Source of the DNA: a virus
Virus record (IMG/VR): IMGVR_UViG_3300021959_010708
Coordinates: 1-47,962 of that record
DNA: 47,962 nt
Reading direction: 5' to 3' (one strand)
Shown: piece by piece, positions 2,879 to 47,242 of the stretch
Layout of the letters: each line of letters opens with the position of its first letter
Numbering within the stretch: position 1 is the stretch's first letter
Notes under the pieces: model-generated
Database searches by the model: none
What the model saw: only the letters and a program-made list of their open reading frames with translations
What the model was told of the DNA's origin: nothing
Position numbers and translations under genes: made by a program

Positions 2879-5563
2879 TTACCAAACATATTTCACACCC
2901 AAATTCGCCGTCATCAAGTCATTATCTTCAACAAAAGTGTACCTCGAACTTGCAGAAAAATTCCATGATTCTGATAGTTGTTTGGAATACGCCAACTCCA
3001 CTACCTTAGGAACTTCGCTTGATTTTGCCGAAGCAGAACCACTTGTGAATGTGGTCGAGTTGTCGGTCCAATTATATGCTGTTGGAAGGGTATAATTGAT
3101 ATCACCGTCGACGACATTCAATTGTTCACCCATTTTGATAATGAATTGATTGTTAATGTTCTGATAGGTCATCCCCAAATACCATGATTGTGACTGTATG
3201 TTGGAAGATCCAGTGATGTATGAATCATTGGCAGATTTAACGTCCGAATATCCCCTAATAAAACCACTATTCCATGTCCATTTTTCCGTCACTGAGTAGT
3301 TCATGTCTGCCCCAACATAATTTGTGGTGCTGGACTTGATTGCGAATGATCCTTGGAAGGATGATCCCAACAGACTGCCGTCCTGTTTCATGCGTCCAAA
3401 ACTGTATGTGACGTCCAACTTGTCTGAGTGTTCTACTGATTTTCCATACAGCCAATCATCGCCGTTCTCACTCATTGCAAACAGCATGCCATCCCCTTGC
3501 AGTTTTGTCACTGGTTCATAGTTGACATATTGATTGCCCAGTGCTTGTTCGGTCAATTGAAAGGAAGTGAAATTGTCGTCATCGGCATAGTAATCTCTGT
3601 TATATGAATCCATCACAACTATGGATGAAACTGCGGATATGTTGTCCAACCCACTCATGGATGAGTCGCCCACGATGCCACCTGATATGGCACTGATGGC
3701 TCCGGAAGGTTGCACAGCAACTATGTCACCCTGTGGTTTGGTTGCTTCATTCAAATCCACCAATCCGTGTCCATACACAGCATCAACTCCTGGTGCTCCC
3801 AAGTCTCGGGCGGTTGATGTGATTAATCCTACCAGTTGTTCAGGTCTCAGTTGTGGCCATGCCTGTTTCAACACAGCGATAGATCCTGTCACATAAGGAG
3901 CCGCCATAGAAGTTCCACTCTTGGTGGTTGTGCCACCACCGTTGGCACTGGAAAGAATGTTCACACCTGGTGCCACCACAAAGAAATCTTTGGTGTTGAA
4001 AGTGTCATCACAGCCTGTGGCAACGCCGTCCGTGTACACCACATTGGAACAGATGTGTCCCGCCTTGTTGGACCATGAAGCAATTTGATTGTTGGAGTCG
4101 ACAGCACCCACGATCAACCATTGTCCATTAAGATATAAGTCACCATTCGAATCCACTCTGGTGGCGTAGTGCGAAGGCATCATGGGGTAATCCATCCCAT
4201 AGTTGCCTGCGGAGTTCACAATGATCATGCCATTGTCGATCGCTGTCTGATAATTCGACAGTGTGGCATCTGCAACACCATCCACGGAAGTTTGTCCGGG
4301 CAAGTAGTAAGCATCAGTGCTACCAATTTGTGTCAAGATTGTTGTCGATGTGTTAGCGGATAGGTTGGCCACAGCGGCGCCTTGATTGCTCAACACCACC
4401 ATGGCATCATCGAAATAGGAAAATGAACATCTGCCACTGCTCGAACACAATTTTATTGAAATAAGATCAGCATCATAGGCCACACCGTGTGTGCCTATGT
4501 CATTCTTTGCACCGGCGATGATTCCAGCCACATGCGTGCCGTGACCATTGTCATCTTCTGTGCCAGCAAATCTGTAATTGATGGTTGAAAATCTATCAGA
4601 ATCAAGATCTTCATGGTCAGTGTCTATGCCTGAATCTATCATGCCAACTATCACACCGTCTCCAGTCCAGCCTCTGGCATAGGCATATGAGGCTCCTATC
4701 TGATCCAATGCTGTGCTGTTGTACTCGTCAGTCAAAAATATTTCACCTACGGGCACAGTTGATGTTGCAGTCAATACTTCTTCCACATCGGCGCTTTCGC
4801 TCCAAGTGGTGACTGTTTCTGAAACAGGGTCTGAATCAGTTGATGTTGTTGTGCCATCCGACCAATTAAAAGTTGTCCTTGTGGCTCTGGTGGTTGTTGT
4901 GTGTGTTGGTACTTTGGTTGTGGTGGTCGTGGTTTGATATGTCTTGGTCACTGTGCCGTCCAGTGTAGATTCCACAACATTTCTTGTGGTGATCGCTGTG
5001 GTGATCACACTTTCGCCCACAACCACATCTGTGTTTGTAATTGTCTGAGAAATGCTTGTGCTGACAACAACTTTTTGGCCTTGTCCTTGATCTTTGTATA
5101 AATCTAATCTTTCTTGGCTTGATAGTGAATCGTCATACTCAACTATCTGTTGCACTGCTATGTATTCTGCTGACTGATCGTCGAACTGGCCTTGTTCAAC
5201 TGCCATAGACCATAAACTTTCCTTGCCATCATAATACCTCTTTTTGAATCCTTTCAATGCATAATAGCCTTGTTCCAAGGTCATACTTTGGCTGTCGATT
5301 ATTATGTTGACATTTGCCAGCGAACTCGGATCAAAGTTAGGATGCTGTTCCACCCATTGAAATGCTTGATAGGCTTCATTGATATCTATCTGTTTGTCGT
5401 CGGCGATGTCGATCAAAGCACTGACAAATGAATTAGAAACCACATCGGTGCTGATTGAAATATTTGTAGGATTTGGAACAGAAATAGAAACAGGTCCTCC
5501 CCCACTGCCTCCGCAGTTTGTTAAAAATAGTGATAATAATAGAATACTCACTAATCTTGTCAT
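2879..5563 (-). CDS. Lipid-anchored subtilisin-like serine protease with barrel-like C-terminus
   Basis: An 894-residue S8 peptidase. The N-terminus is a lipoprotein signal with lipobox LTNC (Cys17). A Thr-rich linker covers about residues 200-245. The catalytic triad is complete: Asp310 (GMIDSGIDTDHED), His341 (NGHGTHVAG) and Ser552 (SGTSMAAPYVTG). After residue 640 the sequence becomes an alternating polar/aromatic, Gly/Ser/Asn-rich segment with repeated Y/W-x-x strands, ending LGVKYVW, which resembles an outer-membrane beta barrel. This layout recalls SphB1/NalP-type subtilisin autotransporters, which are lipid-anchored and process surface proteins. A gene of this kind is unexpected in a phage. 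The promoter 5570-5597 fixes the start. It could trim host surface proteins or mature other phage envelope proteins; that is inference. Confidence 0.85.
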   Translation of the reverse strand: MTRLVSILLLSLFLTNCGGSGGGPVSISVPNPTNISISTDVVSNSFVSALIDIADDKQIDINEAYQAFQWVEQHPNFDPSSLANVNIIIDSQSMTLEQGYYALKGFKKRYYDGKESLWSMAVEQGQFDDQSAEYIAVQQIVEYDDSLSSQERLDLYKDQGQGQKVVVSTSISQTITNTDVVVGESVITTAITTRNVVESTLDGTVTKTYQTTTTTTKVPTHTTTTRATRTTFNWSDGTTTSTDSDPVSETVTTWSESADVEEVLTATSTVPVGEIFLTDEYNSTALDQIGASYAYARGWTGDGVIVGMIDSGIDTDHEDLDSDRFSTINYRFAGTEDDNGHGTHVAGIIAGAKNDIGTHGVAYDADLISIKLCSSSGRCSFSYFDDAMVVLSNQGAAVANLSANTSTTILTQIGSTDAYYLPGQTSVDGVADATLSNYQTAIDNGMIIVNSAGNYGMDYPMMPSHYATRVDSNGDLYLNGQWLIVGAVDSNNQIASWSNKAGHICSNVVYTDGVATGCDDTFNTKDFFVVAPGVNILSSANGGGTTTKSGTSMAAPYVTGSIAVLKQAWPQLRPEQLVGLITSTARDLGAPGVDAVYGHGLVDLNEATKPQGDIVAVQPSGAISAISGGIVGDSSMSGLDNISAVSSIVVMDSYNRDYYADDDNFTSFQLTEQALGNQYVNYEPVTKLQGDGMLFAMSENGDDWLYGKSVEHSDKLDVTYSFGRMKQDGSLLGSSFQGSFAIKSSTTNYVGADMNYSVTEKWTWNSGFIRGYSDVKSANDSYITGSSNIQSQSWYLGMTYQNINNQFIIKMGEQLNVVDGDINYTLPTAYNWTDNSTTFTSGSASAKSSEVPKVVELAYSKQLSESWNFSASSRYTFVEDNDLMTANLGVKYVW

Positions 5564-5597
5564 ACGTATATTGTAATACAGATTAGTGATCTGTCAA
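5564..5597 (-). promoter_or_regulatory. Sigma70-type promoter, leaderless geometry, for the subtilase gene
   Basis: Minus strand: -35 TTGACA at 5592-5597, 16-base spacer, -10 TACAAT at 5570-5575, six bases, then ATG at 5561-5563. No Shine-Dalgarno sequence fits between -10 and start. Confidence 0.8.
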
Positions 5598-5611
5598 TGT
5601 GGTAAAACCCG

Positions 5612-5956
5612 CTATTTTTGGAAGCCTACAGTGTCTCTCTTGATGTCTTTTTCCGGAAATTCTGCCCAATATAGTTCATACGCCACAGAGTCTTCCAAAC
5701 ACTCAAATTGGTGTAGGAGTCCTGGTTTTACTTTGGTGTAATCACCCGCTTTTAATACAGTTTCATCACATAGATCATAGTCTGATTGCCAAACTCTAAT
5801 CATTAGTGATCCAGATTCGACAAAGAATCCATTCCACTTAAATTCGTGTAGATGTTTAGAACATACTCCGCCTTTTTTGGTTACAATTCTGTGGAATTCG
5901 AGAACGCCGTTGCGTTCCACTAATTCAGTGGTTCCCCATACTTTTCCTGCTATCAT
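5612..5956 (-). CDS. Cupin-fold protein
   Basis: A 114-residue single-domain cupin. The first cupin motif is visible around SKHLHEFKWNGFFVESGSL, with His-x-His and Glu spaced as metal ligands. The second is KAGDYTKVKPGLLHQFEC, where Pro-Gly-x-x-His is typical. Small cupins bind a metal or small sugar ligand and act as isomerases, dioxygenases or binding proteins; many handle sugar nucleotides. No signal peptide, so cytoplasmic. It stands alone between the subtilase promoter and a structural gene. In view of the glycan-related genes elsewhere in the window, a sugar-modifying role is possible but not shown. Confidence 0.75.
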   Translation of the reverse strand: MIAGKVWGTTELVERNGVLEFHRIVTKKGGVCSKHLHEFKWNGFFVESGSLMIRVWQSDYDLCDETVLKAGDYTKVKPGLLHQFECLEDSVAYELYWAEFPEKDIKRDTVGFQK

Positions 5957-10459: not shown

Positions 10460-10840
10460 GTGCTTTTTAGAAGAGCCTGTGTATAAACCAAACCAAGCCG
10501 CACCGGCACCAACTACAATTGATACCAATCCTGACTGTTCCATGGTTGGATCTGCAAGGTTCATGTACCAAACAACTACTCTGTATAACAAATAAATGTA
10601 AGTGGTAATAAAAATTCTCGGAAATATTCTCCATGAGTCTACAGCACGAGCAAGATGAATTAATTTAGCATAAGGATTTGGGCCAAGATCCTTCACAGAT
10701 GTATCCACTTCCAGTTCAACAGACACTTTCTTAGAAGTTGTCTTTTGGTCGACGGGCGCCACTATCTTGTCTTCCTTGAGTGTGTCCTTTTCAATGTCGT
10801 CGAAAACGTTCAGTTCGTCATCTTTGATATCTTGTGCCAT
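10451..10840 (-). CDS. Membrane protein, holin candidate
   Basis: A 129-residue protein. A charged N-terminal half (about residues 1-65) is followed by two hydrophobic segments, FPRIFITTYIYLLYRVVVWY and SGLVSIVVGAGAAWFGLYTG, and a basic tail SSKKHDK. Two membrane segments plus a charged C-terminus suit a holin, and the lysis cassette lies 1.3 kb away, but holins cannot be assigned reliably by sequence alone. The late motif TTAAATA (10847-10853) ends six bases before the ATG, consistent with late, leaderless expression. It could equally be a structural membrane protein. Confidence 0.65.
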   Translation of the reverse strand: MAQDIKDDELNVFDDIEKDTLKEDKIVAPVDQKTTSKKVSVELEVDTSVKDLGPNPYAKLIHLARAVDSWRIFPRIFITTYIYLLYRVVVWYMNLADPTMEQSGLVSIVVGAGAAWFGLYTGSSKKHDK

Positions 10841-10846
10841 TTTTGA

Positions 10847-10853
10847 TATTTAA
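10847..10853 (-). promoter_or_regulatory. T4-type late promoter motif (leaderless spacing) for 10451-10840
   Basis: Minus strand TTAAATA, six bases before the ATG at 10838-10840, overlapping the stop of the 53-aa gene upstream. Confidence 0.6.
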
Positions 10854-11011
10854 CCTTTTTTACAGATTCTCCAAATCGAGTATGCAACTCCACAGTATGC
10901 TAAAATTTTAGCCAACCCACCGAATGCAATGATTAACAAGCAACCGATCAGCAGTCCTATGCCGTGCTTGGTTGATGATTCTTTTATTCTGTCTTTGATC
11001 CATTGTATCAT
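10850..11011 (-). CDS. Small single-pass membrane protein (53 aa)
   Basis: A 53-codon frame from ATG at 11011 to TAA at 10850. It reads MIQWIKDRIKESSTKHG, then a hydrophobic segment (IGLLIGCLLIIAFGGLAKIL), then a short tail ending IWRICKKG. Only one base separates its ATG from the TAA of the upstream 91-aa gene, a packing typical of real genes here. One membrane segment with basic flanks suggests a small inner-membrane protein, possibly an antiholin or holin partner of the adjacent 129-aa protein. No homology can be claimed. Confidence 0.6.
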   Translation of the reverse strand: MIQWIKDRIKESSTKHGIGLLIGCLLIIAFGGLAKILAYCGVAYSIWRICKKG

Positions 11012-11012
11012 T

Positions 11013-11288
11013 TTATTTCTCCAACTTTTTGATTCTTGCTTCTAATTCATCTATTTTTTTGGTCACATAAGGATATTTTTTACGCCATCCATCTTCGGGT
11101 TGTTGCAACCAAGTCCAACCATAGCGTTCCACCAAAAAATCAACCATCGTATCAAATTTAGCATACATCCAAAGACCTATGCGAGTTGACTTAAAATATG
11201 TGGAAAATGCCAGACCAAACAAAGACCCAACTAATGCTGTGTATATCCACAGTCTATCAGAGGCCATACGTTCTATCATTTCTAACAT
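11013..11288 (-). CDS. Small membrane-associated protein with C-terminal coiled coil (91 aa)
   Basis: A 91-residue protein with a hydrophobic segment near the N-terminus (LWIYTALVGSLFGLAFSTYF, about residues 13-32), an amphipathic aromatic middle (YGWTWLQQPEDGWRKKYPY) and a short charged coiled coil at the end (KKIDELEARIKKLEK). It is followed after one base by the 53-aa membrane protein, so the two are coupled. The role is unknown; location between structural and lysis genes would fit a lysis or membrane-assembly accessory. Confidence 0.6.
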   Translation of the reverse strand: MLEMIERMASDRLWIYTALVGSLFGLAFSTYFKSTRIGLWMYAKFDTMVDFLVERYGWTWLQQPEDGWRKKYPYVTKKIDELEARIKKLEK

Positions 11289-16568: not shown

Positions 16569-16858
16569 TCAAAAGTCTTAGAGACTTGATCCATATGGTC
16601 TTTGTATGCTTTGTAAAAATATTGATAGGACTGATCAAATGTAAGTTTAGGATCTAAACGATTCTGCACAATGACTTTGTCTTTAAGATCCAGGATGATG
16701 GATGCTGATTGATCTTTTGCTCTTATCTTGGAATCGAAGGATATCTGTTCATCATACTGCACATTTGCGGGGTCCTTGTTCCAGCCAGGCACAGATGTTA
16801 TTCCTGGTTTCACCGGAACCATGTAGTAATGACAGATCAAATACTTAATTTGAGCCAT
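16553..16858 (-). CDS. Small hypothetical protein next to the clamp loader (101 aa)
   Basis: A 101-residue soluble protein (MAQIKYLICHYYMVPVKPG...DQVSKTFDQASS) starting inside the last 14 bases of the gp44-like gene, so it is co-translated with the clamp-loader subunit. In T4 the gene after 44 is the small clamp-loader subunit gp62 (187 aa), but this product is much shorter and shows no visible similarity, so I do not call it gp62. It converges with phoH. Confidence 0.65.
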   Translation of the reverse strand: MAQIKYLICHYYMVPVKPGITSVPGWNKDPANVQYDEQISFDSKIRAKDQSASIILDLKDKVIVQNRLDPKLTFDQSYQYFYKAYKDHMDQVSKTFDQASS

Positions 16859-17777
16859 TGCGTATCCTTGCTAATTTGATAAGAACTGCTGACAAATTGA
16901 TTTCTGCTTCTGCTACAAATGAATGATCCACAATACCTTGTTTGATAACAAGTGTGGCCTCATCCTGTTGATCCTCTGTGTCGCCAAATATTTCAATGTT
17001 GTCGTACATCCAACGATAGATGTCTTCCATCTCTTCTGGGCGTGCCTGTGAACACAATAATTTTCTTGCTTCTGTGATCTTGCCCTGTTTGAACAGTTCA
17101 ACCATCTCTATTCTGTAATCTTGTTCACCCACATCTGCCACATTTGGTGCTTGTAGTTTGGCATCCGCAGAATTCATTTGCAGTGTGTTGATGCATTTTC
17201 TTAGATCAGGATACGTTGCCTTGACGTATGTGTCCAGCGTGTCCAAATCAAACTCAACGCCTTCTTCCACCAATATCTCCGCCGCACGAGCAGTGAACTC
17301 TGTCTTGTCTATCTTTTCGATGTGGAAGCCTTGGCATCTCGAGTGCAGTGCAGGAATCACTCTGTTGGGATAGTTGCAAGTGAGTATGAAACGAGCAGAT
17401 TGATGATACATCTCCATCACACCTCTCAATGCCGCTTGTCCGTTGGGTGAAATGTAATCCGCCTCATCCAACAGCACAACTTTGAATTCGCCGAATGGCA
17501 TGGTTTGCACAAAGTTTGTGATTTTATCTCTAATCACGTCCACAGAGTTTTCTCTTGAAGCATTTATCTCAAGTATGTCTGTGCCGATCACTTCCAACAA
17601 GTTCAGCAGTATCTTTGCCAGCGTGGTCTTGCCCACACCCGGAGCACCCGAAAATAATAGATGTGGAATTGATTTTGATTTGACCCACTGCTCTACTTGT
17701 TTTTTCTGTGCTTCATCACGAAACACATATCCCTGCAGTGTGTTAGGACGATGTTTTTCTACCCAAAGTGTGTTCAT
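16845..17777 (-). CDS. 44: Sliding-clamp loader ATPase subunit (T4 gp44-like, RFC small-subunit family)
   Basis: A 310-residue AAA+ protein that loads the DNA polymerase clamp. The N-terminus LWVEKHRPNTLQGYVF is the RFC box II. Walker A is FSGAPGVGKTTLAK, Walker B VVLLDEADYIS, and sensor/SRC-like elements RFILTCNYPNRVIPALHSRC complete the family signature. Length agrees with T4 gp44 (319 aa). In T4 four gp44 and one gp62 form the loader; gp45 and gp62 are not visible in this window. A TATAAT box lies six bases before the ATG, giving the leaderless geometry, though its -35 (TTGTGT) is weak. Confidence 0.93.
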   Translation of the reverse strand: MNTLWVEKHRPNTLQGYVFRDEAQKKQVEQWVKSKSIPHLLFSGAPGVGKTTLAKILLNLLEVIGTDILEINASRENSVDVIRDKITNFVQTMPFGEFKVVLLDEADYISPNGQAALRGVMEMYHQSARFILTCNYPNRVIPALHSRCQGFHIEKIDKTEFTARAAEILVEEGVEFDLDTLDTYVKATYPDLRKCINTLQMNSADAKLQAPNVADVGEQDYRIEMVELFKQGKITEARKLLCSQARPEEMEDIYRWMYDNIEIFGDTEDQQDEATLVIKQGIVDHSFVAEAEINLSAVLIKLARIRNGSN

Positions 17778-30428: not shown

Positions 30429-31460
30429 TCACCACACAGGCGATCCCACAGACACCAATTGGTATTCTGTCGCCAGCAGTGTTGATGCAAGGTTTTTTGC
30501 CTTGGATTCGCATTGGATGTCAAACAGTTCGCCGAATGGTCGTACCCACTCATTGGTTTTATGATGCCAATAAAAATCGGAGTGTGCTCGTATGGTGGCT
30601 TTGTTTTCACCATTCGCAAACAACCAATCTCTGTCTAACAATTTGTTTGCATCTACTTTGTCTTTAAGTATTTCTCTCGGTTGTGAGTAGTGCATCACAG
30701 GACGCACACCACGCCATGAGTCTATGACTCTCTTGATCCTATCATCTGTGTGGGTTATCCATTCGCCTGTGTTCACCCAATGATGATGGATGTCGAAAAC
30801 CAATGCCACGTGTTTTTCAAGTTCGAGTATGTCAGACAATCCCCATTTCATTTCTTCGTTCTCTATGGTGATGCAATTCCTTGCTTCTGGTGAAAGTCGT
30901 GGCAACACATCTATGATGCCCTGTGGGCCACGTGCGCCTGCTATGTGTACATTGATCTTGAAGTCTTGGAAGGTCTTACCGTATCCCATCCAACGGGCCA
31001 TGTTGACATGATATTCGAATTCATCTATGGATCGTTCTATGACATCATCCGACTCCGATGCCAGCACTGTGAACTGTCCGGGATGGAATGAAACCCTAAC
31101 ACCGAGTTGCCTTGCTGTTTCGCCAACTTCCGCAAAGTGTTTCTCCAAATAGTTTATCACGTCTGGTTTTGACCAGAAGTAACGCCACGTGGCTTCGGTT
31201 GCAACCGGAAGAATAGGTGAACTCAAACGACACATCCTCAGTGGTTCAGGCAGTGCGCCTGTGTATTTTATTAGTTCGTGAATAGATGAAATGTTGTGTT
31301 GCATGAGCATCCAAAGTTTTTCTTCTGCTTCATCGCGATGTTCGTTCAACCATCTCACAGTCGTTGCTTTACAGTTTAAAGGAGACTCTGCTTCTTTCAA
31401 CAATTTGGGTTTTAAACTACGATCTGAATGAAGATATTTACAACAGAAGCCAAGACGCAT
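30429..31460 (-). CDS. uvsE: UV damage endonuclease (UvdE/UVDE)
   Basis: A 343-residue TIM-barrel nuclease that nicks 5' of UV photoproducts and other lesions. Family blocks: MRLGFCCKYL at the start; ISSIHELIKYTGALPEPLRMCRLSS; RVSFHPGQFTVL; NVHIAGARGPQG; ITIENEEMKWG; and LVFDIHHHWVNTGEW, which together supply the His, Glu and Asp metal ligands. Length agrees with bacterial UvsE (about 300-330). In surface seawater this would repair sunlight damage to phage DNA. The leaderless promoter at 31467-31494 fixes the start. Confidence 0.95.
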   Translation of the reverse strand: MRLGFCCKYLHSDRSLKPKLLKEAESPLNCKATTVRWLNEHRDEAEEKLWMLMQHNISSIHELIKYTGALPEPLRMCRLSSPILPVATEATWRYFWSKPDVINYLEKHFAEVGETARQLGVRVSFHPGQFTVLASESDDVIERSIDEFEYHVNMARWMGYGKTFQDFKINVHIAGARGPQGIIDVLPRLSPEARNCITIENEEMKWGLSDILELEKHVALVFDIHHHWVNTGEWITHTDDRIKRVIDSWRGVRPVMHYSQPREILKDKVDANKLLDRDWLFANGENKATIRAHSDFYWHHKTNEWVRPFGELFDIQCESKAKNLASTLLATEYQLVSVGSPVW

Positions 31461-31494
31461 AATTGTATTGTACTGTATTTTAAGATTTTGTCAA
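31461..31494 (-). promoter_or_regulatory. Sigma70-type promoter, leaderless geometry, for the UV endonuclease gene
   Basis: Minus strand: -35 TTGACA at 31489-31494, 16-base spacer, -10 TACAAT at 31467-31472, six bases, ATG at 31458-31460. The -35 overlaps the end of the carbamoyltransferase gene. Confidence 0.8.
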
Positions 31495-32976
31495 CACGGT
31501 GACACCATATTTGTTTGTCCAGTCTTTGGCGTCTTGTTCGTTGTTGACCATGGGTTTGCCCTTGATGTTCAGTGACGTGTTCAACAACATGGGGCAACCT
31601 GTTTTATTGTACCATTGTTCCAGCAGTGATCTGAACCCTGGTGATCCATCATTTTTGCCCACAGTTTGTATCCTTGATGTGTTGTCCACATGCACTATGG
31701 CAGGGAACTCTTCTGGGCGTTTACACACCGCTGTATACTGCATATAAGGGCTCTGTGTGCCTATTGTAGATGTGTCGAAGTAATCTGACACATATTCCTC
31801 CAATATGGCCGGAGCGAAGGGTCTGAACTCTTGCCTGTGTTTGATTTGATTGACCATGTCCTTGATGTTGGGTCCTCTTGGATCCGCCAACAGTGATCTG
31901 TGCCCCAATGCTCTGGGACCAAACTCTGCACGGCCATTGGCCACGCCAACGATCTTGTACTTGTCCAAGTGCTGTATGAGATCATAAACAGGATAATCAC
32001 CCTCGATGTCGTAACCGAGGTATGGCCCTGGCCATTCGATCCTACCTATGGAATCCAGCACACAACCTACCGAGGATCCAGCATCTCCCGGGTTGGGCAC
32101 TATCCAGACATTTTCGTAATATTTTTTTGCGATGGGATTGGCCACGCAGTTTAGAGCACAACCTCCCACCAACACCAAATTTTTGGATCCAAGGGTGTAT
32201 CTGGCTTCCTTGATGATCCTTTGGAAATTTTCTTCGTACAATGCTTGGGTGGTAGCGGCCAAGTCACAAAGGTCTTGGATGGTGTTCGCTTCTGGCAACC
32301 AACCCTGGCAGCCTCTGTGCAAGTTGATGTTAAATTTTGTTGAGAATCCTTGGTTGTCGTAATCAAAGAAGTTTCTTTTCATCTCGCCGAAGTATTTGTT
32401 GGGATCTCCCAAAGCACTCATGCCCATCAAGATGTATTCTTCTTCGTTGGGTTTGAAATGCACCCTCTGTGTCATGGCAGAATACCATAGGCCCACCGAG
32501 TGTGGATAATTTTGCGAATAAACTTTTTTTAACTTTTCTCCCTTGCCTTCCCATACAGTGAGGCATTCCCATTCACCTATTGAGTCGATCACCACAATAG
32601 TTGCATCATTGTAAACACTTGTAAAGTAACCTGCCGCCGCATGGCTCCTATGATGCGAGTGCATCTTGAATTTGGTGAATCTGTCTTTTTTGATGCCGAA
32701 GTCTTCGAGGTGTGCTTGAATGGATGGTTTGTTGAAGACCAAATCCCATTGGCCCGCCCAAGCCTGCCTTGTTTTTTTGATCCATGTATTCTCGTAAAAA
32801 TGTATTTCGAATGGGTGGCCAAACTTTAGAGCATCATCGATGATCAATTGATTGAGCCATTTGTCATTTTTTATGCCAGAATATCTTTCTGCATGGCTGG
32901 CAAAAACCAATTTTTTATCGTCAAATACTGCCAAGGCCGCATCATGGGCCAGTGCTGATATACCCCACCTAATCAT
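31480..32976 (-). CDS. NodU/TobZ-family carbamoyltransferase
   Basis: A 498-residue enzyme expected to transfer a carbamoyl group (via carbamoyl-adenylate) to a sugar hydroxyl. The Kae1-like N-terminal domain shows GISALAHDAALAVFDD, HHRSHAAAGYFTS (metal-binding His) and VVIDSIGEWE. The YrdC-like C-terminal domain shows GRAEFGPRALGHRSLLADPR and LLNTSLNIKGKPMV. Length is somewhat shorter than TobZ (about 570). Phage members are known from marine T4-like phages; proposed roles are glycan or modified-base decoration. It starts in a TAATG overlap with a 38-aa gene. Confidence 0.92.
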   Translation of the reverse strand: MIRWGISALAHDAALAVFDDKKLVFASHAERYSGIKNDKWLNQLIIDDALKFGHPFEIHFYENTWIKKTRQAWAGQWDLVFNKPSIQAHLEDFGIKKDRFTKFKMHSHHRSHAAAGYFTSVYNDATIVVIDSIGEWECLTVWEGKGEKLKKVYSQNYPHSVGLWYSAMTQRVHFKPNEEEYILMGMSALGDPNKYFGEMKRNFFDYDNQGFSTKFNINLHRGCQGWLPEANTIQDLCDLAATTQALYEENFQRIIKEARYTLGSKNLVLVGGCALNCVANPIAKKYYENVWIVPNPGDAGSSVGCVLDSIGRIEWPGPYLGYDIEGDYPVYDLIQHLDKYKIVGVANGRAEFGPRALGHRSLLADPRGPNIKDMVNQIKHRQEFRPFAPAILEEYVSDYFDTSTIGTQSPYMQYTAVCKRPEEFPAIVHVDNTSRIQTVGKNDGSPGFRSLLEQWYNKTGCPMLLNTSLNIKGKPMVNNEQDAKDWTNKYGVTVLTKS

Positions 32977-33092
32977 TATTCGTAGATAAAAGGATCTCTT
33001 TTCTTGAGTTCTTTGATTTTTTTACGATAGGCTAATTCGGATTTGATTTTCCGATAGGGCCATGTGATAATTGATAATATCTTTCTAATCAT
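32976..33092 (-). CDS. Small basic protein ending RDPFIYE (38 aa)
   Basis: A 38-codon frame from ATG at 33092 to TAA at 32976: MIRKILSIITWPYRKIKSE ... KELKKRDPFIYE. It overlaps the end of queD by eight bases and forms a TAATG overlap with the carbamoyltransferase start. The sequence is strongly basic and amphipathic with a WPY motif. I recall closely similar short proteins in marine T4-like phages, which supports it being real. It might sit at the membrane. Function unknown. Confidence 0.65.
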   Translation of the reverse strand: MIRKILSIITWPYRKIKSELAYRKKIKELKKRDPFIYE

Positions 33093-33537
33093 TGCATTCG
33101 TATATAGCAGAATTGTTTTCATGTTCCCAAATTTCTACCTTGCTTACCTTGACCCTGTTGTTGGACTGTTTCTTTGCCCAGTCGTCCACATAGTCATACA
33201 CGAATTTGCATGATGCTTCTATGCCAGGACCATATCCTTTGGTCACATCCATGATATTGATGTTTATAACTCCAATTTGATGCAATTTTTTAATATCTTC
33301 AAGATTAGGATCATCCGAAGCGATCAGTGTTCTGTGATCCCACTGTTCTTCCAACCATGACTTGATTTCACGCAAATAACCAAAATCCATAACCCATTGT
33401 CTGTGATCCAGTTCTCCGCTGAAAGTTATCTGGACATGTCTTCCGTATCCGTGTATGTGTTTGCAGTGTCCGTCATCTCGCCATTGCCTGTGTCCTGTAC
33501 AGATAGGACCGAATCTCTTTGTTGAATAATAATTCAT
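33085..33537 (-). CDS. queD: 6-carboxytetrahydropterin synthase (QueD-type)
   Basis: A 150-residue T-fold enzyme that makes 6-carboxy-5,6,7,8-tetrahydropterin, the second step toward preQ0. Zinc ligands His16, His27 and His29 and catalytic Cys25 fall in CTGH and CKHIHGYG. WVMDFGYLREIKSWLEEQWDHR is the conserved MDFxxLK...D/H block, and VEIWEHENNSAIY is the C-terminal Glu/pterin-binding strand. A QueC-like gene lies at 37546-38256, pointing to a 7-deazaguanine product for DNA or RNA modification. An AAGGAGA ribosome site precedes the ATG. Confidence 0.9.
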   Translation of the reverse strand: MNYYSTKRFGPICTGHRQWRDDGHCKHIHGYGRHVQITFSGELDHRQWVMDFGYLREIKSWLEEQWDHRTLIASDDPNLEDIKKLHQIGVININIMDVTKGYGPGIEASCKFVYDYVDDWAKKQSNNRVKVSKVEIWEHENNSAIYECND

Positions 33538-33553: not shown

Positions 33554-34306
33554 TTATTGTACTACAAAATCGTACATTCGTATACGAAAACCTTTGGTTT
33601 TCATATCCATTATTTTATCTGCGAAATCCTTCACACTGTAGAAATCATTCATTTCAAAAGGATCCTTGGATGATATCACCATCAGCAGTTCATTTGGATT
33701 TTCGTCCTTGACCATCTTGATGTTGTAATTAGAATTTGGCACTGTCAACATGTCGACCTTTTGGCCAGGATGAACCTCATTGGGGTAAACTTTGATGGCT
33801 TCCGAGTTCAGCACAAATATGGCAAAGTATTGTTTGCTCTCTGCATGGACTTCCAACTTCATATAGTCATTGGCATGATATTGTCCATTCTTGTTCATCA
33901 GCACGGAGAAATCATGATCTGTGTCGTACAACTTGTTGATGTCCATCACGAATCCATCTACCTGTGCTACACAGTATCTCCTACCGTCACGATATATTAT
34001 CTCTGTGGCGTAGGTTGATTTCTTGACTATGCCAGGAAATGTGATCCATTTGAACGAGTTCAATTCACAGTTGTCATTGATGCATGTTTTGAGATCGTTC
34101 ACCTGGATGACTTGTCCCAACTCATCTTCTATCAACTGCTTGGTCGCTTTTAGTTTAGCGATCTCGCAAGATTGATTTTCTGTTATGTCAGGTCCAAAGT
34201 CGTGTATGCCTATGGCAGTGCCGGCCCAAGCCGATGCACACCATAGACACACAACGAGTGTGGTGGTTAATTTACTCAATGATTTCCGATTGAGCAAATG
34301 TTTCAT
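33554..34306 (-). CDS. Secreted protein with DUF4384-like domain
   Basis: A 250-residue protein with a signal peptide (KLTTTLVVCLWCASAWA, cleavage after about residue 28). The second half (MKLEVHAESKQYFAIFVLNS, then VYPNEVHPGQKVDM, VPNSNYNIKMVKDENPNEL and ISSKDP) follows the DUF4384 pattern of a strand, a 'yPn' turn, an 'iP' segment and a final strand. DUF4384 proteins often accompany LPP20- or CsgG-type lipoproteins, and here the LPP20-like gene immediately precedes and overlaps it. The ATG at 34306 is used because AAGGA lies eight bases upstream. Predicted periplasmic. It may form part of an outer-membrane assembly or export device. Confidence 0.7.
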   Translation of the reverse strand: MKHLLNRKSLSKLTTTLVVCLWCASAWAGTAIGIHDFGPDITENQSCEIAKLKATKQLIEDELGQVIQVNDLKTCINDNCELNSFKWITFPGIVKKSTYATEIIYRDGRRYCVAQVDGFVMDINKLYDTDHDFSVLMNKNGQYHANDYMKLEVHAESKQYFAIFVLNSEAIKVYPNEVHPGQKVDMLTVPNSNYNIKMVKDENPNELLMVISSKDPFEMNDFYSVKDFADKIMDMKTKGFRIRMYDFVVQ

Positions 34307-34820
34307 CAATTGCATCCTTGTTGATCTCCACTACTCTCGCAGGTGGATACCAATCTGAACGATTGAATTTCATCAATATGAAAGATCTATAGTGAGGTCC
34401 TTCATTGACGACCACTTTGTTTACAACGATGTAACCACCCATGTCCAACTCATCTATAATCGCCTGTGACAATTTTTGAGTCAATTGGGTAGTGTTACCG
34501 TTCACTACAGATCCGGAATCTTCTATGTATCTTTTGAAGTCTCCATTGATATAGTTCTGTAGTTTATCCGCAATCATGACCTTGGCGTCATGGATGCCTT
34601 TGTCGATCGAGAACTGCATGTCCTGACTTTGACCTGTGGCAACACCATAAACCCATGATTCGTCATCCATTGGATAATCAAAGAACCATTCAGGAACTTC
34701 ACTGCCACCACGCAGTTTCACCGTATCAACATCTACTCCTTTGTTGATGTTCTTGTTAAAAGGTCCTGATGAACAAGCACCAAGCATCAACATGAGTAGT
34801 ATTGCTGTTATATGTTTCAT
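34272..34820 (-). CDS. LPP20-family-like outer-membrane lipoprotein
   Basis: A 182-residue lipoprotein with lipobox LGAC (Cys15). The mature part has VPEWFFDYPMDDESWVYGVA, the LPP20 signature (P-W-f...Y.vG.A), and SIDKGIHDAKVMIADKLQNYI, the following A.A...L helix. LPP20-type proteins are often encoded next to CsgG-like pores and DUF4384 proteins. A leaderless promoter at 34827-34854 fixes the start, and the DUF4384-like gene begins inside its 3' end. It probably resides on the inner face of the outer membrane. A phage-borne LPP20 protein is unusual and fits the curlin-repeat gene at the right edge. Confidence 0.78.
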   Translation of the reverse strand: MKHITAILLMLMLGACSSGPFNKNINKGVDVDTVKLRGGSEVPEWFFDYPMDDESWVYGVATGQSQDMQFSIDKGIHDAKVMIADKLQNYINGDFKRYIEDSGSVVNGNTTQLTQKLSQAIIDELDMGGYIVVNKVVVNEGPHYRSFILMKFNRSDWYPPARVVEINKDAIDETFAQSEIIE

Positions 34821-34854
34821 GCTTTTATTATACTACAGAACGATGCAGTGTCAA
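34821..34854 (-). promoter_or_regulatory. Sigma70-type promoter, leaderless geometry, for the LPP20/DUF4384 pair
   Basis: Minus strand: -35 TTGACA at 34849-34854, 16-base spacer, -10 TATAAT at 34827-34832, six bases, ATG at 34818-34820. Textbook consensus at both boxes. Confidence 0.87.
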
Positions 34855-34881
34855 CCAGGGTAAAATTGTTGGAAAATAAGA

Positions 34882-35160
34882 CTAAAGCAGTTCGGCAAAC
34901 CAAGCACCGTCCGGCAATTGGCATTTTCTTGCAGGCAGATACATGCCATTCTGGTAAACTTGGAATACTTGATTCTGACAGGTCAATCCGTGCTCGGAGA
35001 TATAGTATCCGTCGAAGTTGGATGGCTCTTTGTTTGGGTCAACCCAGTCCAATTGATTTTCGGTGTATCTTGGTTCGATGATGACTCCCGCTTTGGCGCA
35101 ATAGGGGATGTAAAGAATGATGAAGAAGAATACTACGGATAAAACGAGTGACCTGATCAT
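34882..35160 (-). CDS. Small secreted protein (92 aa)
   Basis: A 92-residue protein with a signal peptide (IRSLVLSVVFFFIILYIPYCAKA, cleavage after about residue 24) and a short mature part. Two Cys in GLTCQNQVFQVYQ and ARKCQLPDGAWF may form a disulfide. CQLPDGAW faintly recalls the CRQPDGSW end of rickettsial 17-kDa/RT0821 surface antigens, but the match is too short to name the family. Predicted periplasmic. It starts in an ATGA overlap with the 134-aa gene and lies next to the LPP20/DUF4384 pair, so it may belong to the envelope set. Confidence 0.65.
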   Translation of the reverse strand: MIRSLVLSVVFFFIILYIPYCAKAGVIIEPRYTENQLDWVDPNKEPSNFDGYYISEHGLTCQNQVFQVYQNGMYLPARKCQLPDGAWFAELL

Positions 35161-37259: not shown

Positions 37260-37546
37260 TCCTTAGGATCTTTGAGATACCCGTTGTCATTGTAAAGGAA
37301 ACTGATATCTATTCCCTTTTCTAAATCTATCTTCGTGGTACTGACGCCATTTGCTTTTAAAATCATGACATGGATCCTATGGATCACATCGCCTAATTCT
37401 TTGGAGTTGACAATCATATCTAAATCACATCCTACTTCAGCCATGTATTCGATCAATAGTTCCACAGCGTCGATGGTCTGTCTATCAGAAATATCGAGGT
37501 CATCCATGTTGTTAAATTTTGGAAAATCTATAATTTTTGCAGTCAT
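37256..37546 (-). CDS. Small acidic hypothetical protein (96 aa)
   Basis: A 96-residue acidic helical protein (MTAKIIDFPKFNNMDDLDIS ... GYLKDPKD). The ATG at 37546 overlaps the QueC-like stop as TGATG; an in-frame TTG just upstream is less likely. It converges on the methyltransferase gene with a four-base overlap. ELLIEYMAEVGCDLDM and LGDVIHRIHVMILKANG look helical. Function unknown. Confidence 0.65.
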   Translation of the reverse strand: MTAKIIDFPKFNNMDDLDISDRQTIDAVELLIEYMAEVGCDLDMIVNSKELGDVIHRIHVMILKANGVSTTKIDLEKGIDISFLYNDNGYLKDPKD

Positions 37547-38256
37547 CAAATCAATCTTCCGAATCCATATTGTCTTTCAGCACACCACCAGCAGTCCCCA
37601 CAGTGTTGTGAGAAATCGGAGGTCTCTTGTTCACAGCTCCTTGTCAAAGGGAACAAGGTGTCTATGATGTCAAAATGTGAATACAATTCCGCCACTGTTT
37701 TCTTGTCCACATGCAGAAGAGGATAGTGTCCCCTGTGAATGATGTCTTGCTTTTGCCATTCTTCATACTCCGAATTAACGAACGACGTTCCCTCCAGTTT
37801 GCCTTTCATCTCGATGTCTCTTTCTTCGCTCCTCCAATCCCACAATTCTACCAGTTTGGGATTTTCTTGGTAGTCTATGGGGTTAGTGGTCTGTCCCATG
37901 AGATGGACATCCAATTGGTTGTCTCTGTACGACTTTTCTAACAAAACCAATTGTTCGTCTGCATAGTGACCATTTGCTGTGCCTACTCCTGTGGTGTGAG
38001 ATGAAAACTTGAAATCAAATTCGTTTTCTAACCACGACATCACTTGTTTGGCAAATTTTACTTGGAATGCTTTGAGTGGATGATCCATTGTGATCACATG
38101 CAGATTGAGATCTGGCCTATACTTTTTCTTGTACAAAGACAGCATGTATGCTATGATTGAACTGTCCGTGCCACCGCTCATTTTAATTCCTATGTTTTTT
38201 ACCAACGGTTCAAAGTTGAACACGAACTCTTTCTGTTCTGTGTTTACCTTTAACAT
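37546..38256 (-). CDS. queC: QueC-like PP-loop ATPase (7-cyano-7-deazaguanine synthase family)
   Basis: A 236-residue PP-loop enzyme. The ATP-binding loop is KMSGGTDSSIIAY (about residues 25-37). The C-terminal zinc site SCEQE...HCGDCWWCAERQYGFGR gives four Cys spaced as in QueC (SC...CGxCxxCxxR). QueC converts 7-carboxy-7-deazaguanine to preQ0 with ammonia and ATP. The middle region is more diverged than in bacterial QueC, so a related PP-loop activity is possible. With queD at 33085-33537 it suggests 7-deazaguanine production, as in phages that replace G in DNA. QueE, FolE and a DpdA-type inserter are not seen in this window. It is coupled to IF-1 by a TGATG overlap. Confidence 0.78.
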   Translation of the reverse strand: MLKVNTEQKEFVFNFEPLVKNIGIKMSGGTDSSIIAYMLSLYKKKYRPDLNLHVITMDHPLKAFQVKFAKQVMSWLENEFDFKFSSHTTGVGTANGHYADEQLVLLEKSYRDNQLDVHLMGQTTNPIDYQENPKLVELWDWRSEERDIEMKGKLEGTSFVNSEYEEWQKQDIIHRGHYPLLHVDKKTVAELYSHFDIIDTLFPLTRSCEQETSDFSQHCGDCWWCAERQYGFGRLI

Positions 38257-40487: not shown

Positions 40488-41276
40488 TTAGAATGCTACA
40501 GAAACACCCATTGCTGGTGTTACTTCTTTAGAGTCTAAATTGTAGTTTGCTTCCACATAGTAACCAAGATCTTTCCAAGTTGATTTGTAGCCTGCACCTA
40601 CGTTCTTTGACCAGTCACCCTCGTCACCGTCGACATATGCTGAAACAGGACCCATTGCTACGATTGACTCGTAAGCAACTTCATTTGTCAATGTTTCGTC
40701 ATGTGTTACAACTGTGGACAAGTTTACTGATTCGTTCAAGTCAAATGCTACAGAACCTGCAAAGACGTTGTTGTCATTTGAGATTGTGTGATTAACTGCC
40801 GCTCCAACTGAGAATTTATCAACTGATGTTGAAAATTTCGCTTGGATTGTTGAGAAATCAGAAATGTCTGTGTCTGTGTCTGTAAACAAACCTCTCACTG
40901 ATAATGCACCGAAGTTACCGATGATGCTCTCACCTGCATCACTTGGGTTAGCAAGTGTGTTTGCACCCACAGCTTCAAGACCGCCACCGATAAAGATGTC
41001 GCCCTGGTCACCGTATGATACAGACGCAGTGTCTGTGATGTTTGCACCGATCTGATATTCATCCATGATGAACTGATCTGATGAGTTTGTTTTTGCTTTG
41101 ATGTAACCGAAAGCAACTCCTGAGTCGCCGTTCACATCAAATTTGATTGATTCAGTTGAGATGTAATCATTACTTGCGTTTTCTGTAATGTCCACTTCCA
41201 CAGTACCGGTAATAGTGGCAGCTTGTGTAACACCTGCAAAACCTAAAGCAATCATAAGTGCTATTAGTTTCTTCAT
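40488..41276 (-). CDS. Gram-negative-type porin
   Basis: A 262-residue outer-membrane barrel. The signal peptide is MKKLIALMIALGFAGVTQA with cleavage before ATITG. The mature part consists of alternating amphipathic strands (ITGTVEVDIT, FGYIKAKTNS, ASVSYGDQGDIFIG, FSVGAAVNHTI, GAGYKSTWKD, YYVEANYNLD) and ends GVSVAF, with the C-terminal Phe recognised by the BAM machinery. Acidic overall. It has its own strong leadered sigma70-type promoter, GAGGAG ribosome site and terminator, so it is an independent unit. Phage porins can replace host porins to block superinfection, or alter nutrient uptake. Confidence 0.88.
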   Translation of the reverse strand: MKKLIALMIALGFAGVTQAATITGTVEVDITENASNDYISTESIKFDVNGDSGVAFGYIKAKTNSSDQFIMDEYQIGANITDTASVSYGDQGDIFIGGGLEAVGANTLANPSDAGESIIGNFGALSVRGLFTDTDTDISDFSTIQAKFSTSVDKFSVGAAVNHTISNDNNVFAGSVAFDLNESVNLSTVVTHDETLTNEVAYESIVAMGPVSAYVDGDEGDWSKNVGAGYKSTWKDLGYYVEANYNLDSKEVTPAMGVSVAF

Positions 41277-47032: not shown

Positions 47033-47242
47033 TTAATTTGGTTTTGTATAAACATCTGGCTGTTTTTCCACACAGAACATCCTAACCATGCTGTGTGTGG
47101 CCACAAGGGTCCTGTTGTAGCCGGCTTGGTAACGCAGGCAGGTTTCTATGTTGGGCATTTCCACTATGGGCAGTTTGTCAAAGGGTTCCCATTTTTCCAA
47201 CTCCATGTTGAATATCAGAGCGATGAGGAATATCTTTATCAT
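47033..47242 (-). CDS. Small secreted or membrane-anchored protein coupled to curlin gene (69 aa)
   Basis: A 69-residue protein with a short hydrophobic start (MIKIFLIALIFNMELE) and a mature-like part containing NIETCLRYQAGYN and MVRMFCVEKQPD. Two Cys may pair in the periplasm. It begins in an ATGA overlap with the curlin-repeat gene, so the two are made together; a chaperone or assembly helper is possible. The signal is short and its cleavage uncertain. Confidence 0.6.
   Translation of the reverse strand: MIKIFLIALIFNMELEKWEPFDKLPIVEMPNIETCLRYQAGYNRTLVATHSMVRMFCVEKQPDVYTKPN

Follow-up and report, generated by a model that had tools for sequence, protein, structure and literature searches.

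The stretch analyzed here (the window) is the entire IMG/VR fragment IMGVR_UViG_3300021959_010708 of a marine phage, 47,962 bp long with a G+C content of ~42%. Two genes on its minus strand overlap by 44 nucleotides, one encoding a lipoprotein with the fold of Helicobacter pylori LPP20 and the other a secreted partner protein (Table 1). An initial annotation of the window had described this overlap, and both open reading frames are where it placed them. We conclude that the pair consists of real, conserved phage envelope genes from known families that are undescribed as far as the searched literature shows, no description of an LPP20 pair having been found there. The identity of the two products, an LPP20-fold lipoprotein and a DUF4384-type partner, is almost certain.

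The name LPP20-like, given to the lipoprotein in the initial annotation, was confirmed by a fold search, which ranked H. pylori LPP20 (PDB 5ok8) first, as did one of two profile searches. With a profile built from 10 family members, hmmsearch against the PDB returned 5ok8 as the top match (E = 1.8e-4), and a broader profile of 44 lipoprotein sequences did not recover it. The Pfam LPP20 model (PF02169) matched 2 of the 10 family members (best E, 0.0044) and gave no match to the window lipoprotein itself. Foldseek comparison of the predicted structure placed chains A and B of 5ok8 at the top (probability 1.00; E = 4e-3 to 5e-3), the model having a mean predicted local distance difference test score (pLDDT) of 69.7 and a core, residues 41 to 90 and 131 to 150, at pLDDT 86 to 94. 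Viral structure models matched by fold included entries named LPP20 lipoprotein, among them that of Campylobacter phage CP8 (AGS81221). The lipobox cysteine was invariant in 44/44 homologues. The ratio of nonsynonymous to synonymous substitution rates (dN/dS) was 0.10 to 0.21 against four relatives, which indicates that the lipoprotein gene is under purifying selection. Single-sequence searches of Pfam, NCBIfam, PHROGs, and PADLOC gave nothing significant for either member of the pair.

By inspection of its sequence, the partner begins with a signal peptide, and no further transmembrane segment is apparent. Its start codon is uncertain, since another in-frame ATG occurs at 34306. Conserved cysteines accompany the FGPDxTxNxxC motif in the N-terminal half. 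For the C-terminal half, the match of the window protein to DUF4384 (PF14326) was below threshold (E = 0.21), and the model matched four of seven partner-family members (best E, 6.6e-4). A homologue of the window partner, L118 (E = 6e-22), exceeded the Pfam DUF4384 cutoff (33.1 bits versus 27; E = 5.9e-8). The DUF4384-like identity suggested by the initial annotation is thus supported by way of this homologue, and on these profile matches the C-terminal half represents a divergent form of that domain. Foldseek of the partner returned generic immunoglobulin-like sandwiches only. The idea that the partner might represent a second LPP20-like domain was rejected after a profile-profile comparison detected no similarity, and a PDB match to 5bnd (E = 0.002) was set aside as a low-complexity alignment. 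In the dN/dS comparison with relatives, its synonymous sites were saturated. Among 84,980 cellular genomes, relatives of the partner were confined to one 4.3-kb contig of a metagenome-assembled genome (L159), possibly itself phage.

The strong leaderless promoter proposed for the pair also held up. Its sigma70-type consensus (TTGACA-N16-TATAAT) is perfect; five such promoters occur in the window, compared to 0.15 expected by chance, and the homologous lipoprotein gene has the identical layout, including the 6-nucleotide spacing, in five relatives (L005, L008, L032, L033, and L034). Leaderless starts are a general habit of the window phage and not peculiar to the LPP20 pair, because the exact spacing recurs at ten window genes: at 10 strong promoters the ATG lies exactly 6 nucleotides past the -10 box, and any other offset occurs at most twice. 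Examples on the minus strand are the starts at 34820, 35561, 40417, 43549, 31460, and 5563. Across 124 LPP20 loci, a sigma70-like promoter was present within 2.5 kb upstream in 78 (13 in shuffled sequence; 42 in the downstream control). The T4-type late motif TATAAATA was present upstream in 2 of these loci (30 shuffled; 9 downstream). Judging from promoter sequences, the pair is probably expressed early. The main text of the transcriptome paper on Campylobacter phage NCTC 12673 makes no mention of an LPP20 gene.

Table 1. Features of the window, listed outward from the overlapping gene pair
Feature	Position	Strand	Remarks
LPP20-fold lipoprotein, 182 residues, predicted in the outer membrane	34272..34820	-	Lipobox LGAC/SS, Cys16; best PDB sequence and fold match 5ok8
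Secreted partner, 253 residues	33554..34315	-	Signal peptide, N-terminal FGPDxTxNxxC-motif domain, C-terminal divergent DUF4384
Leaderless sigma70-type promoter, TTGACA-N16-TATAAT	34827..34854	-	-10 box 6 nucleotides before lipoprotein ATG
Secreted protein, 92 residues, CxLPDGxW end	34882..35160	-	Separate unit with 134-residue gene; probably no obligate part
Conserved phage protein, 134 residues	35157..35561	-	Heads upstream unit; homologues in Mosig, HTVC008M
QueD-like PTPS	33085-33537
Carbamoyltransferase	31480-32976
UvdE-like UV endonuclease	30429-31460		Identified by eye
QueC-like protein	37546-38256
Putative outer-membrane beta-barrel, 262 residues	40488..41276	-	Signal peptide, C-terminal Phe, beta-barrel-like sequence
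PA14 and curlin-repeat protein, C-terminal 240 residues	47239..47961	-	Truncated by contig end; separate curli operon

Genes related to that of the lipoprotein occur on at least 507 stretches in IMG/VR, and tblastn recovered such relatives in the isolates Melnitz, Mosig, and HTVC008M; the LPP20-fold lipoproteins of ~40 Campylobacter phages are more remote. A secreted protein of the FGPDxTxNxxC type adjoins the lipoprotein in 102 of the 124 loci, always on the same strand and in either gene order. When we considered the 77 loci retrieved by the lipoprotein query alone, 58 had such a same-strand neighbor. Several of the remaining 19 lie at contig ends, two do have an FGPD-type protein (on a duplicate contig and as a divergent copy, respectively), and most others have a different small secreted cysteine-containing protein in the partner's place. 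The partner gene is downstream of the lipoprotein gene and overlaps it in the window clade, and it is upstream in Melnitz-type phages, with a gene for a 45-residue protein with one transmembrane segment in between. The Melnitz-type operons also hold a tiny lipoprotein. At these loci (51/124), a Hydrolase_2 cell-wall hydrolase directly follows the LPP20 gene, and these three additional products are all envelope proteins. In Melnitz (L001) it occupies 10657-11184 (E = 1e-21), right behind the LPP20 gene; the Melnitz paper, in contrast, reports gp67 as the sole lysin-like gene.

The hydrolase raises the possibility that the pair is part of a cell-wall or lysis module, remodeling the peptidoglycan and outer membrane together with the Hydrolase_2 enzyme in lysis control or spanin-like disruption. 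The presence of the tiny lipoprotein and the single-pass protein in the same operon is consistent with such a module. However, no hydrolase neighbors the pair in the window clade, the promoter is of the early type while the late-promoter motif is depleted, and the partner has a signal peptide without a lasting transmembrane anchor. We consider this explanation unlikely. A spanin pair of the Rz/Rz1 type was rejected: the partner of an i-spanin/o-spanin pair would be anchored in the inner membrane, and only the N-terminal signal peptide is apparent here.

The initial annotation had placed the pair within an outer-membrane export or amyloid device while noting, correctly, that CsgG is not found in the window. 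This is because the contig ends before csgG. At its right end, the window shares 1,204 bp with contig L009 (99.75% identity). L009 extends further in the upstream direction, with genes in the order PA14-curlin fusion, FecR, curlin, CsgG, CsgF, and an autotransporter-type barrel protein. The CsgG match is strong (Pfam E = 4e-58), and csgG lies ~2.3 kb beyond the window end. Inspection of the flanking sequence, which the annotation had recommended, therefore recovered both CsgG and CsgF, and the pore gene that it allowed might be missing from the full genome is encoded just past the contig end. The curlin-repeat gene reported at 47239 does contain curlin repeats, although what is visible in the window is merely the C terminus of a PA14-curlin fusion. 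The full fusion (L009 9419-10723; PA14 E = 3.6e-9, curlin repeat E = 3.7e-12) is a possible adhesive curli subunit, and a related 455-residue gene is found at 57098-58465 of G026, a single 114.8-kb relative. Directly upstream of csgF, L009 encodes a 507-residue secreted protein with an autotransporter-type beta-barrel (4188-5711; E = 6e-14). Divergent to csgF is a gene for a 679-residue protein with a hydrophobic N terminus (L009 2038-4083, minus strand; G026 62446-64485, plus strand), whose position fits the adenylate cyclase reported from phage curli regions (PMC9599517). Amyloid export is therefore true of the window phage, as already known for other marine phages; it does not explain the LPP20 pair. 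Curli export genes and an envelope-type pair are both carried by this phage, as the annotation had it, but the pair is no visible part of the device.

Read along the lines of the initial annotation, the pair would be an accessory of the phage CsgG (type VIII) channel, for instance a stand-in for CsgE that serves in outer-membrane assembly or gating. The csgF-csgG-curlin-fecR-(PA14)curlin genes are present in this phage lineage; Melnitz and HTVC008M have both the LPP20 gene and CsgG; and, beyond the window clade, the closest relative whose partner is clearly of the DUF4384 type (L040/L118) has CsgG on its contig. However, the pair and csgG are neither adjacent nor cotranscribed. They are ~15 kb apart when the window is joined to L009 and 25 kb apart in G026, where the DUF4384-like and LPP20 genes lie at 33595-34861 and the csg operon at 57098-61568. 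No early-type promoter like that of the pair was present directly upstream of csgF in L009. Furthermore, the two are separable both ways. CsgG was absent from 34 of 35 LPP20-positive records, including contigs of 161.7, 125.9, and 88.3 kb (many of the 35 are fragmentary, making these counts qualitative). The complete Mosig genome has LPP20 and no CsgG, as do G046, G059, and G040; conversely, the CsgG-positive G019 (140.9 kb) gave no LPP20 match. Campylobacter phages with the LPP20-fold lipoprotein also gave no CsgG match. Given its own promoter, its distance of 15 to 25 kb from csgG, and the occurrence of its relatives mostly in CsgG-free records, we place the pair outside the curli device. 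Its independence from curli is quite likely, and a role as a CsgG accessory is improbable.

The explanation we favor, with roughly even chances of being correct, is that the pair forms an early-expressed envelope-modification module, separate from the csg operon. Host RNA polymerase would transcribe the pair soon after infection from the leaderless consensus promoter. The LPP20 (SHS2-like) lipoprotein would be targeted to the periplasmic side of the outer membrane, and the second product would act with it as a soluble periplasmic partner, probably disulfide bonded. Jointly, the two would modify or reinforce the host outer membrane during infection, leading to exclusion of superinfecting phages or to an envelope kept intact until lysis. 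A change to the outer membrane appears the likeliest role because the pair is predicted to be early and envelope located; the specific role, exclusion or bracing, is offered tentatively. Broader still, and rather doubtful, is the proposal that marine T4-like and jumbo phages build an early lipoprotein assembly under the host outer membrane, comprising an SHS2-fold ring or mat and a disulfide-bonded partner, in some cases with a wall hydrolase. If true, such an assembly would be a widespread, previously unrecognized envelope-fortifying or exclusion system.

Several observations weigh against an early envelope-modification module. Early transcription may belong to the whole region, because a third of LPP20 loci show early-type promoters downstream too. 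Certain lineages lack the FGPD-type partner, with or without a different small secreted cysteine-containing protein in its place, and Campylobacter phages have no FGPD-type partner beside the lipoprotein. The known exclusion lipoproteins, Llp of T5 and Cor of phi80/N15, are far smaller, at about 60 to 80 residues. The PADLOC library gave no match, a result that bears on host defense and not on exclusion. The analogy to FlgP is remote, in that the region forming the ring-building beta-hairpin in FlgP is predicted, with low confidence, to be helical here. A further alternative, considered very unlikely, is that many LPP20 copies polymerize under the outer membrane like FlgP, scaffolding another phage-built structure or shielding the inner side of the membrane against incoming tail tips. 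The bacterial SHS2-fold lipoproteins FlgP and FlgT make outer-membrane-associated rings (PMC12222027), and a small lipoprotein behind a strong promoter is compatible with high copy number. On the other side, residues 101 to 130, at the FlgP hairpin position, are modeled as a helix at pLDDT 54 to 63, a low score that makes this weak evidence.

Other genes near the pair are less closely tied to it. The initial annotation had joined a small secreted protein to the pair; the 92-residue protein is real but forms a separate unit with the 134-residue gene, which has its own leaderless promoter (35596-35568), and in G026 it sits 6 kb from the LPP20 pair. Kinship of this protein with the 17-kDa surface-antigen-like proteins of Mosig and HTVC008M was rejected, the likeness being just a 15-residue CxxPDGxW match. 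The gene at 40488, described as a porin, has the signal peptide and C-terminal Phe of such a protein and is conserved in L005, L007, and L033/G026; it gave no Pfam or phage match, however, so that its role is putative and it is tied to neither module. Accessory metabolic genes flank the LPP20 pair in a run (30429-31460, 31480-32976, 33085-33537, and 37546-38256), and elsewhere the window encodes a T4-type baseplate connector, an ATP-dependent ligase, ClpP, and an ATP-dependent protease. The clamp loader (16845-17777) is closest to those of PA5oct-type jumbo phages (56%) and has merely 35 to 38% identity to those of Melnitz, Mosig, and HTVC008M. The window phage is therefore not a pelagimyophage, and by this gene it may come from an uncultured marine jumbo-phage lineage.

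The lipoprotein is probably important to these phages, given its occurrence in more than 500 viral contigs, the repeated presence of a similar secreted partner, and the early-type promoters. The pair is a concrete candidate, open to experimental test, for the means by which marine T4-like phages alter the outer membrane of streamlined hosts, and relatives carrying an LPP20 gene are in culture (Melnitz, Mosig, HTVC008M, and the ~40 Campylobacter phages). Among known systems, Llp and Cor are early phage-encoded outer-membrane lipoproteins, as proposed for the window lipoprotein, but they have a different fold and no partner; the similarity of the window family to Llp (8a60) is at the level of the signal peptide only. 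In bacteria, FlgP and other lipoproteins with the SHS2 fold assemble into disks associated with the outer membrane (PMC12222027), and FapH, a lipoprotein encoded beside flgP, forms a ring that preserves the barrier function of the outer membrane (PMC11756786). These rings likewise involve an SHS2-fold outer-membrane lipoprotein encoded beside another secreted envelope protein, whereas the phage pair has no flagellar context and the FlgP beta-hairpin is not predicted; the comparison is an analogy and does not imply homology. Phage-borne curli (type VIII) secretion has been published for pelagimyophages, Melnitz, and HTVC023P-type pelagiphages (PMC7029224, PMC9004378, PMC9599517). The window phage has these genes in the same order (csgF-csgG-curlin-fecR-curlin) past the right-hand limit of the window, which extends this secretion operon to a lineage close to jumbo phages; it differs in that the second curlin is fused to a PA14 domain and that the LPP20 pair lies apart from the operon. 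The C-terminal half of the partner aligns with DUF4384 proteins (PF14326), with L118 above the curated cutoff, and differs from them by the added N-terminal FGPD domain, which is found without DUF4384 in Melnitz-type phages. Finally, the window lipoprotein resembles the LPP20 family (PF02169; H. pylori 5ok8; CP8 AGS81221) in lipobox, size, and SHS2-like fold; it differs in being phage encoded and below the Pfam threshold, and its phage relatives are usually paired with a secreted partner.
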